Source: Armatimonadota bacterium (GTDB taxonomy: Bacteria > Armatimonadota > Zipacnadia > Zipacnadales > JABUFB01). From it: DNA of 64,000 nt. Shown here in pieces: positions 20,804-26,665 of this stretch. Made by a program: the position numbers and the translations under genes. The stretch spans positions 1-64,000 of the forward strand of contig JABUFB010000001.1 in the NCBI GenBank assembly GCA_013314775.1. The letters run 5' to 3'. A model generated the notes under the pieces. It was not told where the DNA came from. It made no database searches and saw only the letters and a program-made list of their open reading frames with translations. The stretch's first letter is position 1. The number at the start of each line of letters is the position of its first letter.

Positions 20804-21922
20804 TCACTCCTTGGATTGGTCCGGTCCGCCGTAGCGGTCGGTCAACTCACTCGCGCAGATAATCCCCCCGCCCAGGCAGTACTCGCCCCGGTAGAATACC
20901 GCCGATTGCCCCGGGGTGGGCGCCCGCGCGGCTTCGAGAAACTCCACGCGCGCGCCACCGGCGTGAAGGGAGACTCGCGCCGCGACGAGGCGGCCGTTGT
21001 AGCGGGTCATGACCTGGCACTCAAGTGGATTGTCTCGTTCGCAGCCGATCAGGTTCACGTCGCGCAGGTCGCACCAGTGCACCCACAGGTCATCCTCGTC
21101 GCCCACGACAAGGCGGTTGCGGGGCACGTCAACAAACAGCACAAAACGTCTTCCCCCGGGGCCGCCGATGCCCAGCCCCTTTCTCTGGCCCACCGTGTAG
21201 CCCCACAGGCCTGAGTGCTCTCCTATGACCTGCCCGGATGCGTCCACAATCGGGCCGGGTGCAGCCTGCGAGGGAGCCGTCGCAGCCAGCCAGTCCGCGT
21301 AGTCCACGCCGCTGAGGAAGCATGCATCCTGGCTCTGCGGCGCGGGTGGCAGGTCCGGCAACTCGGCGGCTACGAGAGCCTCATTGTCGGCGCGGGTGTA
21401 CTCGCCATTCGGAAACAATGCCCGGCCAAGCTGCCGCGACGACAGGTGGTGCAGCACATACGACTGGTCCTTGTGTCGATCCGCGGCCATCAGCAGGTAA
21501 GGACACCTGCCGGGGGAGTGCTCCAGGCGCGCGTAATGCCCGGTAGCAAGACTTCTGGCTCCGAGTTCCAGCGCGGCATCCAGCAGGAGCCCGAACTTGA
21601 TGTGCTCATTGCACTGGACGCAGGGGTTGGGGGTGCGCCCGGCAAGGTACTCGGCGACAAATGGTTCCACCACCCGCTTGTGGAAAGGCTCGCGCAGGTC
21701 GACGCGATGAAAACAGATGCCCAGGCGCGCGCAGAGGGCGCGCGCACGGTCAGCGCCCTCGTTGTCGCGGTGTGGTTCGTGCAGGTCAGCGGAGATGCCG
21801 AAGACGGGAAGACCGGCTGCCATCAGGCGCAGTAGCGCCGCCGTGCTATCCACCCCACCGGACAGGGCGACTGCAACAGGGCCGAAACAGGGACGGTTGT
21901 CTTGCGTGTGTTCAGCGGGCAT
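20804..21922 (-). CDS. mnmA: tRNA-specific 2-thiouridylase MnmA
   Basis: A 372-residue enzyme that thiolates U34 of tRNA-Lys, Glu and Gln. The N-type PP-loop ATPase is ALSGGVDST (residues 20-27). The first catalytic cysteine is in NPCVQCN, the second in SQDACFL. LATGHYARL, KDQSYVL, GYTVGQRKGLGI and the C-terminal beta barrel with TRYNG are all as expected. ATG 21922 with AGAGG upstream begins the family-like sequence; the open frame runs on to 22582 but the extension is antisense to rel. It heads a four-gene minus-strand cluster and diverges from rel across 144 bases. Confidence 0.93.
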   Translation of the reverse strand: MPAEHTQDNRPCFGPVAVALSGGVDSTAALLRLMAAGLPVFGISADLHEPHRDNEGADRARALCARLGICFHRVDLREPFHKRVVEPFVAEYLAGRTPNPCVQCNEHIKFGLLLDAALELGARSLATGHYARLEHSPGRCPYLLMAADRHKDQSYVLHHLSSRQLGRALFPNGEYTRADNEALVAAELPDLPPAPQSQDACFLSGVDYADWLAATAPSQAAPGPIVDASGQVIGEHSGLWGYTVGQRKGLGIGGPGGRRFVLFVDVPRNRLVVGDEDDLWVHWCDLRDVNLIGCERDNPLECQVMTRYNGRLVAARVSLHAGGARVEFLEAARAPTPGQSAVFYRGEYCLGGGIICASELTDRYGGPDQSKE

Positions 21923-22026
21923 GGCCTCTACTCGTATCCGGGATGCTGCGTCGAACCGCGGGACCGTGGCTCTTCGTGCGGAAGGCAGACGATGCCCCAG
22001 ACCGCGCCCACGCGCCCACATGAAAG

Positions 22027-22066
22027 TTGGCGAGAGCCCGTGTCTAGTATAGAATATACTCCACTT
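22027..22066 (+). promoter_or_regulatory. rel promoter, near-leaderless, within a palindrome shared with mnmA
   Basis: TTGGCG (22027-22032), 17 bases, TAGAAT (22050-22055). Transcription would begin near 22062, five bases before ATG 22067, and no Shine-Dalgarno is present. The -10 lies in an inverted repeat AGTATA-GAA-TATACT (22046-22060). Read on the minus strand, TATACT at 22051-22046 with GTGGCA 16 bases upstream could serve mnmA. Confidence 0.65.
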
Positions 22067-24229
22067 ATGCCACTGACGATCCAGCAGGTAATTGACCGTC
22101 TCGCGGTGTACTGGCCCGATCTCGACCGCCAGTTGATCATGCGCGCCTACGAGTTCGCCGACTCTGCCCACGCCGGGCAGCGCAGGAAAAGCGGCGAGCC
22201 ATACATCGTTCACCCGCTGAATGTCGCCAACATTCTGTCGCAGATCGAAGCAGACCCCCAGTCCATTGCCGGGGGTCTGTTGCATGATACCATCGAGGAT
22301 ACCGACTGCGACCTGGAAGATATCAGACGTGAGTTCGGAGACGAGATCGCCCAGATCGTGGACGGGGTGACGAAGCTGGGGCATCTCAATTTTCGCACCG
22401 CCAAGGAAGAGCAGGTGCGCAACCTGCGCAAGATGCTCCTTGCAATGTCCCGGGACATGCGGGTGCTCATCGTCAAACTCGCCGACCGGCTGCACAACAT
22501 GCGCACCCTGGCATCCCTGCCGGAGGACCGGCAGAAGCACATCGCCGAGGAGACTCGGGCGATCTATGCGCCGCTGGCCCACCGCCTTGGTGTCTGGCGG
22601 GTGAAGTGGGAACTTGAGGATCTCTGCCTGCGGTACCTCGAGCCCGAGGCCTACTTTGAGATCGTAGACAAGCTGGGCAAGACCCGTACTGAGCGCGAAA
22701 GTGACATCGAGGCGGCGCGGTCAGCCCTGTCCAAGGGGCTGCATGCGGCCGGGGTGGAGGCTGAAGTGCAGGGGCGGGCAAAGCACATCTTCAGCATCTA
22801 CCACAAGATGAAGACGCAGCACCTGGATTTCGAGGAGATCGGCGACCTCATGGCCCTGCGGGTGCTGTGCAATTCGGTGAGCGACTGCTACGCTGCGCTG
22901 GGCGTGGTCCATGAAAAATGGATGCCCTTGACCGGGCAATTCACGGATTACATCGCTAAGCCCAAGAGCAACAACTACCGGTCCCTTCACACGAAAGTCC
23001 TCGGTCCTACCCAGCACCCCATGGAAGTCCAGATACGCACCTATGAAATGCACCGGATCGCCGAATACGGCGTGGCCGCCCATTGGCGCTACAAAGAGGG
23101 CGGGAGCGATCCTGATGTGGACAAGTACCTGTCCTGGTTCCGCCACATCGCCGAGATGGAGACGGACCTGCAGGAGAGCCATGAGTTCTGGGAGGGCCTG
23201 GAACACGAGCTGTTCGAGAGCCAGGTGTTCGTATTCACTCCACAAGGCGACGTCATCGACCTTCCCGCAGGCGCCACGCCGGTGGACTTCGCCTACCGCA
23301 TCCACACCGACGTGGGCCACCACTGCGTAGGCGCCAAGGTTGACGGGCAGCTTGTCCCGCTGGACTACGAGTTCCGCAATGGGCAGGTGGCCGAGATCAT
23401 TACCCAACGCGGAAGCCAGCCCAGCCGCGACTGGCTGCGGTTCGCCCGCAGCTCCCACGCGCGCTCGAAGATTCGCCGATTTCTCCGTCAGCAGACCCGG
23501 GATGAGAACATCGCGCGCGGCAAGGAGGCCCTCGAGCGGGAGATCGCCGGCTTGCGTGGATCGCAACGATCCCAGCTGGACATGTCGAGGATAGAGTGGG
23601 TCGCTCAGCATCTCAATTACCAGGACGTGGAAAGCCTCTACGCCGCCCTGGGATACGCCGACGTTGACCCGACGACGGTTGTCAATCACTTGCTGCAGCC
23701 GGTGGAGCCGGAATCGCTGGCTGAGGAAGTTGCGATGTTCGCACCCTCACGGGGGCCCGCAGGAGGCAACGGCCCGCAGGTGACCACCGAGGGCGTGAAA
23801 GGCTTCCGGTCCCGTCCCGCGAAATGCTGTGCGCCGATCCCGGGCGACGATATCGTGGGCTACATCACCCGTGGCGGTGGCCTGGCCATCCATCGCGCCG
23901 ACTGCAAGAATCTCATCTATCGCCAGGAGCGCGAACCTGAGCGGGTGATCCCCCTGTCGTGGGACACCGAGGACACCAAGACAGTTTCCGCGGACATCGA
24001 GGTGACCGCAGTCGACCGGGTGGGGCTGTTCAGCCACATCACCGCGGTGGTGTCGGATCTCGGCCTGAGCATCCGGGCGGCGGAAGCGCACCTCATCGAC
24101 GAACACCTCGCGCGGCTGGTGATGACCGTGGACATCAAAGACCGCCGAGATCTCAATGAGCTGATCCAGCACCTGTCGCAGTTGATCGACGTGGTGAGCG
24201 CCCGGCCGCTCACCGGCACGGCTCGATAG
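22067..24229 (+). CDS. rel: Bifunctional (p)ppGpp synthetase/hydrolase, RelA/SpoT family
   Basis: A 720-residue stringent-response enzyme making and degrading (p)ppGpp. Order: HD hydrolase with LLHDTIEDT (His73-Asp74), so hydrolase residues are present; synthetase domain with KHIFSIYHKMK, YIAKPKSNNYRSLHTKV and EVQIRTYEMHRIAEYGVAAHW; TGS domain (VFVFTPQGDVIDLPAGATPVDFAY); a helical and zinc-finger-like region (KCCAPIPGDDIVGYITRGGGLAIHRADC); and a C-terminal ACT domain (VDRVGLFSHITAVVSDLGLSI). ATG 22067 matches the family start; it has no ribosome-binding site but a promoter -10 ends 11 bases upstream, implying a leaderless message. An 82-bp repeat array begins at the stop codon. Confidence 0.94.
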   Translation: MPLTIQQVIDRLAVYWPDLDRQLIMRAYEFADSAHAGQRRKSGEPYIVHPLNVANILSQIEADPQSIAGGLLHDTIEDTDCDLEDIRREFGDEIAQIVDGVTKLGHLNFRTAKEEQVRNLRKMLLAMSRDMRVLIVKLADRLHNMRTLASLPEDRQKHIAEETRAIYAPLAHRLGVWRVKWELEDLCLRYLEPEAYFEIVDKLGKTRTERESDIEAARSALSKGLHAAGVEAEVQGRAKHIFSIYHKMKTQHLDFEEIGDLMALRVLCNSVSDCYAALGVVHEKWMPLTGQFTDYIAKPKSNNYRSLHTKVLGPTQHPMEVQIRTYEMHRIAEYGVAAHWRYKEGGSDPDVDKYLSWFRHIAEMETDLQESHEFWEGLEHELFESQVFVFTPQGDVIDLPAGATPVDFAYRIHTDVGHHCVGAKVDGQLVPLDYEFRNGQVAEIITQRGSQPSRDWLRFARSSHARSKIRRFLRQQTRDENIARGKEALEREIAGLRGSQRSQLDMSRIEWVAQHLNYQDVESLYAALGYADVDPTTVVNHLLQPVEPESLAEEVAMFAPSRGPAGGNGPQVTTEGVKGFRSRPAKCCAPIPGDDIVGYITRGGGLAIHRADCKNLIYRQEREPERVIPLSWDTEDTKTVSADIEVTAVDRVGLFSHITAVVSDLGLSIRAAEAHLIDEHLARLVMTVDIKDRRDLNELIQHLSQLIDVVSARPLTGTAR

Positions 24230-24536
24230 TGGCCCCGTGCTGAAGCACGGGTCTGAGGGCCTTCGGCCGATCGTCCCTGGGACGGGACGTAAAGGCGGAG
24301 GGGACGCGAAGTGGCCCCGTCCTGAAGCACGGGTCTGAGGGCCTTCGGCCGGTCGTCCCTGGGACGGGACGGAAAGGCGGAGGGGACGCGGAGTGGCCCC
24401 GTGCTGAAGCAAGGGTCTGAGGGCCTTCGGCCGGTCGTCCCTGGGACGGGACGGCAAGGCGGAGGGGACGCGAAGTGGCCCCGTGCTGAAGCAAGGGTCT
24501 GAGGGCCTTCGGCCGATCGTCCCTGGGACGGGACGG
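24229..24536. repeat. Tandem array 1 of an 82-bp palindromic repeat (about 3.75 units)
   Basis: Units start at 24229, 24311, 24393 and 24475, exactly 82 bases apart; the last is cut short near 24536. Each unit holds three small hairpins: CCCGTGC-tgaa-GCACGGG, GGCC-ttc-GGCC, and CGTCC-ct-GGGACG, then a G-rich spacer GGCGGAGGGGACGCG. All units here have GGGTCTGAGGG and CGTCCCTGG. The remaining intergenic bases to 24736 contain one reverse copy of the dispersed motif (24551-24572) and no gene. Open frames through the array are by-products of the repeat. Confidence 0.93.
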
Positions 24537-24550
24537 GAGCCCTTGCGCCG

Positions 24551-24572
24551 GCCGGGACGGTCGGCCTGCGCG
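24551..24572 (-). repeat. Dispersed intergenic motif, reverse copy
   Basis: The reverse complement reads CGCGCAGGCCGACCGTCCC plus GGC, sharing 19 identical bases with 15912-15930. A shorter copy (14 bases) is at 26299-26312 and a related palindromic copy at 60285-60305. Confidence 0.7.
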
Positions 24573-24736
24573 ATTTTGAGGCAGACGGCAAAGACCGGGA
24601 CGGGCGGCGCCGGGAACGAACGTCACCCAGACGCGGCAGACTGTGCATCGACCTCGCAGGAAACCCCGGCAATGGCGGCGAACCCTCCAGCAAGCGCAAG
24701 TGGCCCCTCACGATTACCGATGGGAGTGATCTCACC

Positions 24737-25783
24737 ATGCCTGAAACCATGAAAGCCGCTGTCCTGCACGGTGTGGAGGACCTCCGGGTCGAATCCACTC
24801 CGGTGCCGCCCATGCTCGGGCCGGACTTCTGTCTCGTGAAGATCGGGGCCTGTGGAATCTGTGGCTCCGACATTCACTTCTTCCGCCACGGGAAGATCGG
24901 CGATTTCGTGGTCACAAGCCCCATGAGTCTGGGGCATGAAGCTGCAGGGACTATCGTGGAAGTGGGGGAGAGCGTCAGCCACCTCAAGCCCGGCGACCGG
25001 GTGGCGATCGAGCCCGGCTATACCTGCCGCAAGTGCGAATTCTGCAAGAGCGGGCGCTATAACCTGTGCAAGGACGTCGTGTTCCTCGCCGCACCACCAT
25101 ACGACGGCGCTTTCGCGGAGTATCTCCCCTGGCCCGCGGACTTCCTGTTCAAGCTGCCCGACAATGTTTCCCTGGAGGAGGGCGCGATGATCGAGCCCTT
25201 CTCGGTCGGCCTCCACGCCGCGCGCAGGGCCCAGATCAAGGGCGGCGACTGGGTGCTTGTCACGGGCTCGGGCCCCATCGGGCTGTGTGCCCTGCAGGCT
25301 TCCCTCGCCAGCGGAGCGACGCGAGTCTTTGTGAGCGACATGGTGGCATCGCGCCTGGGCACTGCGACAGAATTGGGGGCCGCGGCCACCATCAATCTGA
25401 AGGAGGCCGATATCCAGGAAGCCGTCGCGGAACTCACTGACGGGCGCGGCGTGGATGTGGTCCTGGAATGCTCCGGCAATTCGGCAGCGGTGCGAGACGC
25501 GGTGGAGGTCGTGAAGCGCGGGGGTATGGTGCAGCTTGTGGGGAACTTCATGGAGACCAACCCGCCGATACCGATCCAGCGCATGGTGGAGCGGGAGCTT
25601 TCGGTCTCGGGCCTCTTCCGCTACTGCAACACGTACCCGACGGCAATCGACATGGTTGCCACAGGGCGGGTAGACGTGGCGGCCCTGATCACCCATCGTT
25701 ACCCGCTGGACGAGACCCCGGAAGCCATGGCGTGGGTAGACGAAAACAAGGACAAGGTCATCAAGGGCGTCATCATGCCGTAG
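24737..25783 (+). CDS. Sorbitol/polyol dehydrogenase-like zinc MDR enzyme
   Basis: A 348-residue NAD-dependent dehydrogenase. Catalytic zinc: CGICGSDIHFF (Cys about 40), GHEAAGTI, and IEPFSVGLHA. Structural zinc lobe with four cysteines: CRKCEFCKSGRYNLC. Rossmann domain: VLVTGSGPIGLCALQASLASG. The segment YTCRKCEFC...NLCKDVVFLAAPPYDGAFAEY is characteristic of sorbitol, xylitol and L-iditol dehydrogenases, so oxidation of a polyol to a ketose is likely. GGGAG lies 11 bases before ATG 24737. The gene stands alone between two arrays of the same 82-bp repeat. Confidence 0.9.
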   Translation: MPETMKAAVLHGVEDLRVESTPVPPMLGPDFCLVKIGACGICGSDIHFFRHGKIGDFVVTSPMSLGHEAAGTIVEVGESVSHLKPGDRVAIEPGYTCRKCEFCKSGRYNLCKDVVFLAAPPYDGAFAEYLPWPADFLFKLPDNVSLEEGAMIEPFSVGLHAARRAQIKGGDWVLVTGSGPIGLCALQASLASGATRVFVSDMVASRLGTATELGAAATINLKEADIQEAVAELTDGRGVDVVLECSGNSAAVRDAVEVVKRGGMVQLVGNFMETNPPIPIQRMVERELSVSGLFRYCNTYPTAIDMVATGRVDVAALITHRYPLDETPEAMAWVDENKDKVIKGVIMP

Positions 25784-25798
25784 GTATGCGGGACGCGT

Positions 25799-26208
25799 TT
25801 GGCCCCGTGCTGAAGCACGGGTCTGCGGGCCTTCGGCCGGTCGTCCGTGGCACGGGACGGCAAGGCGGAGGGGACGCGGAGTGGCCCCGTGCAGAAGCAC
25901 GGGTCTGCGGGCCTTCGGCCGGTCGTCCGTGGGACGGAACGGCAAGGCGGAGGGGACGCGGAGTGGCCCCGTGCTGAAGCACGGGTCTGAGGGCCTTCGG
26001 CCGGTCGTCCTTGGGACGGGGCGGAAAGGCGGAGGGGACGCGGAGTGGCCCCGTGCTGAAGCACGGGTCTGCGGGCCTTCGGCCGGTCGTCCTTGGGACG
26101 GAACGGCAAGGCGGAGGGGACGCGGAGTGGCCCCGTGCTGAAGCACGGGTCTGCGGGCCTTCGGCCGGTCGTCCGTGGGACGGAACGGTAAGGCGGGGTG
26201 GGATAGGG
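25799..26208. repeat. Tandem array 2 of the 82-bp palindromic repeat (5 units)
   Basis: Units start at 25799, 25881, 25963, 26045 and 26127, with exact 82-base spacing and the same orientation as array 1. Four units have GGGTCTGCGGG and CGTCCGT or CGTCCTT where array 1 has GGGTCTGAGGG and CGTCCCT; the third unit is mixed. The first unit begins 16 bases after the dehydrogenase stop codon. Bases 26209-26377 hold a short copy of the dispersed motif (26299-26312) and no gene. Confidence 0.93.
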
Positions 26209-26377: not shown

Positions 26378-26665
26378 ATGGAACAAGGCAACATTGGTCA
26401 GCTGCTTATCCCGCTGGCGTTCATGATCGCCATGTTGGTGATCTTCTGGATCATTGTGGTCCGCCCGACCCAGGGCCGCCAGAGAAAACACCAGGAGCTT
26501 GTGCAGGGCATCATGCCCGGTGACAGCATCATCACCGTGGGCGGGATATTCGGGAAAGTCGTATCGGTGAGGGACAAGACTATTGACCTTGAGATCGCGA
26601 AGGGCACCACGATCACCCTGGACCGCCGCGCGATCCGCCGGCTCCAGAGCCAGGAGGACTTCTGA
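26378..26665 (+). CDS. yajC: Preprotein translocase subunit YajC
   Basis: A 95-residue single-span protein that associates with SecDF and the Sec translocon. One membrane helix near the start (LLIPLAFMIAMLVIFWIIVVRP), then the family core: RPTQGRQRKHQELVQGIMPGDSIITVGGIFGKVVSV and a small beta domain ending in ITLDRRAIRRLQ. Length and order match the family. AAGGAG precedes ATG 26378. It is followed by the DUF4446 gene after one base, so they are co-translated; secD/secF are not adjacent. Confidence 0.94.
   Translation: MEQGNIGQLLIPLAFMIAMLVIFWIIVVRPTQGRQRKHQELVQGIMPGDSIITVGGIFGKVVSVRDKTIDLEIAKGTTITLDRRAIRRLQSQEDF

Follow-up and report, generated by a model that had tools for sequence, protein, structure and literature searches.

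A three-hairpin repeat of Armatimonadota that probably forms the ends of small Y1 transposons and is amplified into satellite-like arrays

Two arrays of an 82-bp tandem repeat lie on either side of a dehydrogenase gene in the window, the 64,000-nucleotide stretch of Armatimonadota DNA analysed here as a whole. In our reading of the sequence comparisons, the repeated unit is probably built around a non-autonomous element of ~62 bp, inverted copies of which form the ends of small transposons with a Y1 HUH transposase of the Y---Q--HH type, and which has been amplified locally to satellites. In the following, we describe the arrays, the element and its copies in this and other genomes, its association with Y1 genes, and the alternative explanations that have to be weighed against this one.

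Two arrays with a common spacer

Both arrays run head to tail and in the same orientation (Table 1). Array 1 comprises four units, starting at 24229, 24311, 24393 and 24475 with three 20-bp spacers between them, and array 2 five units, starting at 25799, 25881, 25963, 26045 and 26127. Tandem Repeats Finder (TRF) delimits them at 24228-24536 (period 82, 3.8 copies, 96%) and 25800-26196 (period 82, 4.8 copies, 95%), and the self-identity at lag 82 is 0.96 in array 1 and 0.95 in array 2, while neighbouring lags do not exceed 0.36 and lag 82 in the rest of the window does not exceed 0.37. TRF and lag-82 identity thus both bear out the layout described in the first-pass annotation, i.e. four and five units with an 82-bp period around the gene at 24737-25783. 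The last copy is partial in each array; the left array ends at ~24537 and the right one at ~26196, slightly short of the proposed 26208.

Table 1. Positions of the arrays, of the parts of the first unit and of the neighbouring genes in the window
Feature	Position	Strand	Basis
relA/spoT-type (p)ppGpp synthetase/hydrolase gene (start codon not settled)	21902..24229	+	Pfam HD_4, RelA_SpoT, TGS, ACT
Array 1	24229..24537	+	TRF, unit register and flanks, covariance model (R1) matches
Hairpin A, unit 1 (CCCGTGC-TGAA-GCACGGG)	24234..24251	+	helix 1 covariation, DNA fold
Hairpin B, unit 1 (GGCC-TTC-GGCC)	24258..24268	+	covariation analysis, DNA fold
Hairpin C, unit 1 (CGTCC-CTG-GGACG)	24272..24284	+	covariation analysis, DNA fold
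Spacer between units 1 and 2	24291..24310	+	
Zinc-dependent medium-chain dehydrogenase gene, between the arrays	24737..25783	+	Pfam ADH_N, ADH_zinc_N; synteny
Array 2	25799..26196	+	TRF, unit register and flanks, R1 matches
yajC, downstream neighbour	26378..26665	+	Pfam YajC

Element identity is 0.96 in array 1 and 0.95 in array 2, and elements from different arrays are 0.92 identical. Their spacer is likewise common to both arrays (93.8% between arrays) and unlike the spacers of other arrays in the genome. As array 2 is preceded on its 5' side by sequence ending in GGGACGCG, which matches the end of the spacer, the spacer of both arrays probably derives from the array 2 site. The first base of array 1 overlaps the relA stop codon, and its last unit stops at about the 3' end of the element, without a spacer. 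Judging from such short matches, array 2 appears to be the older of the two and array 1 a copy that is bounded by element ends.

A non-coding element of three hairpins

Each unit consists of a 62-bp element of three hairpins (A, B and C) and a 20-bp spacer; this agrees with the first-pass description of small hairpins, three per unit, with a purine-rich spacer, the hairpins being followed by ~20 bp (GGCAAGGCGGAGGGGACGCGGA). A structure (covariance) model, R1, was built from 32 diverse units, the seed sequences having been collected through similarity to the window, and matches array 1 at 24229-24289, 24311-24371, 24393-24453 and 24475-24535. In hairpin A, where covariation is strong, both sides are changed in six of nine pairs, as in the variants CCCCGGGT-TGAA-ACCCGGGG, CCCCGCGC-TGAA-GCACGGGG and CGGGCAC-TGAA-GTACCCG. 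Hairpin B is nearly invariant among the 32 units, and hairpin C, of the general form CGTCC-n3-GGACG, has weaker pairing support, partly because of its variable loop length. The covariation score of the full structure is 0.175; shuffles score 0.085, and sliding the structure gives no more than 0.10. The proposal of a non-coding structured repeat is therefore supported by base-pair covariation as well as by intergenic location. A coding array was rejected, given that the period of 82 cannot be divided by three and that the arrays are intergenic; likewise, a CRISPR array was rejected, given that the spacers within an array are nearly identical and not unique.

The third pair from the loop of hairpin A is unpaired in 26 of the 32 diverse rows, mostly as C.A (G.T on the opposite strand), whereas hairpin A of the window units is fully paired, an exception among the copies; the window units may therefore represent an atypical subfamily. 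Stem irregularities of the C.A kind matter in recognition by the E. coli TnpA_REP (PMC8266576). We found no unpaired GTAG or CGTC tag: hairpin A is preceded by different bases in different copies (GTGG, GACG, GATG, GAGG, TCGG), and the CGTC in hairpin C is base-paired. Rfam yielded no match at the gathering score, and the open-licence literature no paper on this element in Armatimonadota. The earlier statement that the repeat belongs to no named family accordingly holds for Rfam at threshold, but functionally the element groups with the palindromic repeats of Y1/HUH transposases, i.e. those of the REP and TIR type.

Copies throughout the genome

A search of the genome from which the window comes (G000; 6.1 Mb, 37 contigs) with the 82-bp unit returned 91 matches, which are spread over many contigs and lie in arrays that differ in period and spacer. 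In a survey of contigs C1 and C3 (719 kb) with R1, we found 53 copies above ~42 bits, which extrapolates, as a rough estimate, to several hundred copies across the genome. By the calls of a simple home-made codon-usage scorer, genes take up 86% of the DNA of these two contigs but contain only 7% of the element bases, and ~90% of the copies are intergenic. All 11 multi-unit clusters on them are head-to-tail, with neighbours agreeing in orientation in 38 of 38 cases, while the units occur in either orientation relative to the flanking genes. Periods (e.g. 75, 79, 81, 82, 113 and 143 bp) and spacers are specific to each locus. Of the 82-bp unit that had been taken as a whole, the 62-bp part thus recurs genome-wide and phylum-wide, whereas the spacer is local to the two window arrays. 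The first-pass annotation had also considered that these might be the only copies in the genome, with no relatives, or that the period might be an assembly artefact. The former is contradicted by copies throughout the genome and in 31 of the 251 Armatimonadota genomes. As for the latter, arrays whose periods differ are found at many loci, also in independent genomes, which speaks against an artefact; the exact number of copies per array could still be wrong.

These data also bear on the possibility that the arrays are transcribed RNA elements, for instance an attenuator, mRNA-stabilising 3' hairpins or a small RNA, which control relA, the dehydrogenase or yajC. Consistent with such a role, both window arrays occupy gaps in a run of genes that all have the same strand, the unit folds more strongly as RNA than its shuffles do (z ~-2), and three units at 25799-26120 give weak matches to the Rfam aspS RNA. 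However, these matches score 26-31 bits (best 31.2) against a gathering score of 42.5 and are not repeated in the units of other genomes, for which reasons we judged them to be chance. Furthermore, other arrays run opposite to their flanking genes, and an unrelated repeat occupies both gaps in the sister genus. No U-tract terminator was found at the units, which led us to reject a terminator reading as well. We therefore consider control by RNA elements unlikely; neither for it nor for a function in chromosome structure, both suggested at first pass, was there positive evidence in a repeat that occurs in both orientations to flanking genes and without a U-tract terminator.

Association with Y1 transposase genes

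Copies of the element (E<=0.05) occur on both sides of Y1 genes, mostly inverted, in eight genomes (G107, G102, G073, G145, G011, G049 with three such genes, G047 and G180), and Y1 genes flanked by it are found in eight families of the phylum. In the genome of the window, a Y1_Tnp gene (C9:152072-152416) is embedded in a block of these repeats. It is the only Y1 gene of this genome that adjoins the element, and it may be decayed, since its likely start codon is CTG.

The element is present on both sides of 11 of the 26 Y1 genes with a Y---Q--HH motif and of none of the 34 other Y1 genes (P=2e-5), and when only element-rich genomes are considered, on both sides of 10 of 21 compared with none of nine (P=0.012), where both P values are indicative only, because the Y1 genes are not phylogenetically independent. 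The NP-type Y1 genes that we examined are without the element. The other 15 Y---Q--HH genes do not have copies on both sides under R1, and several of them have other TGAA-loop hairpins. A generic test for inverted repeats around Y1 genes gave no separation (21 of 26 Y---Q--HH genes and 22 of 34 others; P=0.25); it does not discriminate because many Y1 genes of every kind lie amid palindromes, and only R1 separated them.

The element-flanked proteins, of ~130-180 aa, are essentially a Y1 domain with a short tail, and have the Y---Q--HH motif instead of Y--NP, which is absent from them. In a Y1 protein alignment (A2), H55, H57, W95, Y115, Q119 and H123 are invariant, the catalytic H, H, Y and Q residues included, and H122 is conserved in at least 90% of cases, while a Q after the W is present in most rows, but not in all. 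The Y1 proteins match Pfam PF01797 and NCBIfam NF033573 above cut-off and stay below cut-off for NF047646 (REP_Tyr_transpos); the nearest solved structures are transposases of the IS200/IS605 type, including IS608 TnpA.

Other Y1 genes come with other repeats. A second Y1 gene in the window's genome (C16:55920-56267; L077 3409-3894) has ~300 bp of a different palindromic repeat on each side (CCACCAGCTGACGCTGGTGG, GCCCCGACAGGGGC), and Y1 genes related to it in G001 and G002 have altered versions of that repeat (CCAGGGGCTTCCGCCCCTGG, CCACCAGCTTCCGCTGGTGG), some of them in tandem. Contig C23 (34 kb; L086, L087) is exceptionally dense in the three-hairpin element, interleaved with palindromes like those at the C16 gene.

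Insertion and tandem amplification

A copy at C15:32551 and an array at C3:73351 have no counterpart at the orthologous positions in the congener G001; at the place of the Y1 gene and arrays of the window's genome, the congener has one unit. In the C3:73351 array (L290 13330-13700; G000:C3:73330-73700), each 143-bp unit consists of the last codons of the upstream gene and the element; as each unit repeats the 3' end of this gene, the duplicated segment took in flanking DNA. Presence and absence in the congener and the co-duplicated flank suggest that copies insert and then expand by tandem duplication.

We envisage that the transposase would recognize the folded single-stranded hairpins, i.e. 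an often imperfect hairpin A with its TGAA loop, B and C, and copy or move the element into intergenic DNA. The inserted element would then be duplicated head to tail along with some of its flank, giving rise to satellite-like arrays; the tandem copies themselves very probably arise through slippage or unequal recombination. In the window, one array would have formed downstream of the dehydrogenase, taking up local flank as its spacer, and part of it would subsequently have been copied, bounded by element ends and presumably in this direction, to the relA stop codon.

Slippage could in principle account for more than the tandem copies: the arrays might be plain satellite DNA, a palindrome expanded by replication slippage, with an incidental association with transposases. 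The high identity within arrays and the locus-specific periods and spacers, including the captured gene end, are in line with this, but it leaves unexplained why the element is dispersed to many intergenic sites and genomes and why inverted copies are found at both ends of Y1 genes, which makes it an improbable account.

Distribution in Armatimonadota and beyond

In searches with R1 under strict filters, the element was found in 31 of 251 Armatimonadota genomes from at least 13 families, and the other 220 gave no match. Carrier genomes often have at least 15 copies, where at most 21 candidates per genome were scored and the counts are lower bounds. Could these dispersed intergenic palindromes, whose architecture is conserved across the phylum, instead be BIME/REP-like elements of chromosome structure that selection maintains, such as gyrase, IHF or HU sites? 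Their head-to-tail layout is unlike that of the alternating BIMEs, and most genomes of the phylum are without a match, so that we regard this as very unlikely.

Outside the phylum, weaker R1 matches flank related Y1 genes in Planctomycetota (L215, L210, L238, L208), Verrucomicrobiota, Chloroflexota and Gemmatimonadota. Some of them form head-to-tail arrays; many have E values of ~0.01-0.1 and are leads only. In one planctomycete (Phycisphaerales OFTM8; L215 1300-2220), the Y1 gene lies among head-to-tail 65-bp repeats of two hairpins (CCAGGGGCTGAAGCCCCTGG and CGCCCTCCGGGCG). An exact-pattern scan of the genome contig collection with a pattern near the window unit returned no match; the unit is lineage-specific, and close relatives are possibly outside the collection.

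Relation to known systems

REP/RAYT systems (REPtrons, BIMEs, REPINs) also have high-copy intergenic, often imperfect palindromes, with copies on the flanks of a Y1 HUH tyrosine transposase, and more than one cognate family per genome. By contrast, the element described here comprises three hairpins in 62 bp, lacks a conserved GTAG or CGTC tag and is arranged head to tail in arrays, and its putative transposase has Y---Q--HH in place of the Y--NP of class 2 RAYTs. Among REPs, head-to-tail (HT) dimers are rare (PMC3733652).

In TIRtrons (TIRYT; Di Nocera 2013, PMC3733652), Y1 genes lie between terminal inverted repeats, which also form moderately abundant dispersed and sometimes clustered families. 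The eight genomes with flanked genes listed above show the arrangement by which TIRtrons are recognized, i.e. a Y1 gene between inverted copies of a repeat that is found elsewhere in the genome. Most known TIRYTs are of subclass 2.1 and have a C-terminal HTH, and a GGGGWSAS motif is common to many of their TIRs (PMC3733652, PMC6006769). In the present case, the protein is instead a short one of the Y---Q--HH type, and the terminal repeat is a conserved composite of three hairpins.

Judged by motif signature, the flanked transposases are subclass 1.2-like: with TnpA_Y1 subclass 1.2 (Quentin 2018, PMC6006769), they share the DH[IV]H, WQ and Y---Q--HH signature, the short protein and the low copy number. 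This subclass has been reported as devoid of REPs and of the usual secondary structures at its ends, and mainly from Cyanobacteria and Bacteroidetes (PMC6006769), whereas hairpin elements flank the genes here in Armatimonadota and, by weaker matches, in the four further phyla named above. The comparison with IS200/IS605 points both ways. With this group, the flanked proteins have in common the above-cut-off matches to PF01797 and NF033573 and the nearest solved structures; unlike the small single subterminal hairpins of the IS200 type (subclass 1.1), however, the ends here are inverted three-hairpin repeats with many solo copies. Subclass 1.1 is further marked by multiple, nearly identical copies and often by tnpB, while the Y1 copies here are few and diverse in most genomes.

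Lastly, the non-coding satellites of Leptospira interrogans and Methanocella conradii (PMC6749651) are likewise intergenic tandem families of long period that are dispersed in the genome. Such satellites have been reported as rare and unexplained in bacteria, and no spreading mechanism was identified for them (PMC6749651), whereas there is a candidate transposase here. More tentatively than the reading of the window itself, we propose a new HUH system, in which Y1 transposases of the subclass 1.2 type would recognize ends composed of several hairpins and, between the genes of Armatimonadota, Planctomycetota and perhaps further phyla, would seed satellite arrays that run head to tail. If true, this would be transposase-driven satellite DNA in bacteria. 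A transposase class reported as repeat-less would gain a concrete and abundant candidate substrate, and its target recognition would become testable; moreover, the system would offer a mechanism for dispersed non-coding bacterial satellites, and it may explain repeat blocks in the window's genome that are otherwise open to annotation as spurious ORFs.

Gene order around the arrays

A cassette that carried the dehydrogenase and had the arrays as its ends, whether a composite transposon or the gene-bearing duplicated unit suggested at first pass, would suit an element and spacer common to both arrays (92-94% between arrays), but has next to no plausibility: the arrays are direct rather than inverted, the order relA-dehydrogenase-yajC is kept in the sister genus G002, where an unrelated palindromic repeat and not the window element fills both gaps around the dehydrogenase, and in G003, a further genus, yajC likewise adjoins the dehydrogenase gene. 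Since the order is the same in the sister genus, the repeats did not bring the dehydrogenase, which on this synteny is an ancestral neighbour of relA and yajC that was not moved by them, and the bracketing reflects two neighbouring gaps that accept repeats.

The repeat around the same dehydrogenase in G002 (L108 3180-3690 and 4740-4920; G002:C994) has a GGGGCCCC core, and its downstream version has 44 matches across that genome. A pyrE-like gene in another genome (L124; G047:C67) provides an independent example of a single bracketed gene: it lies between two solo copies of the three-hairpin element in the same orientation.
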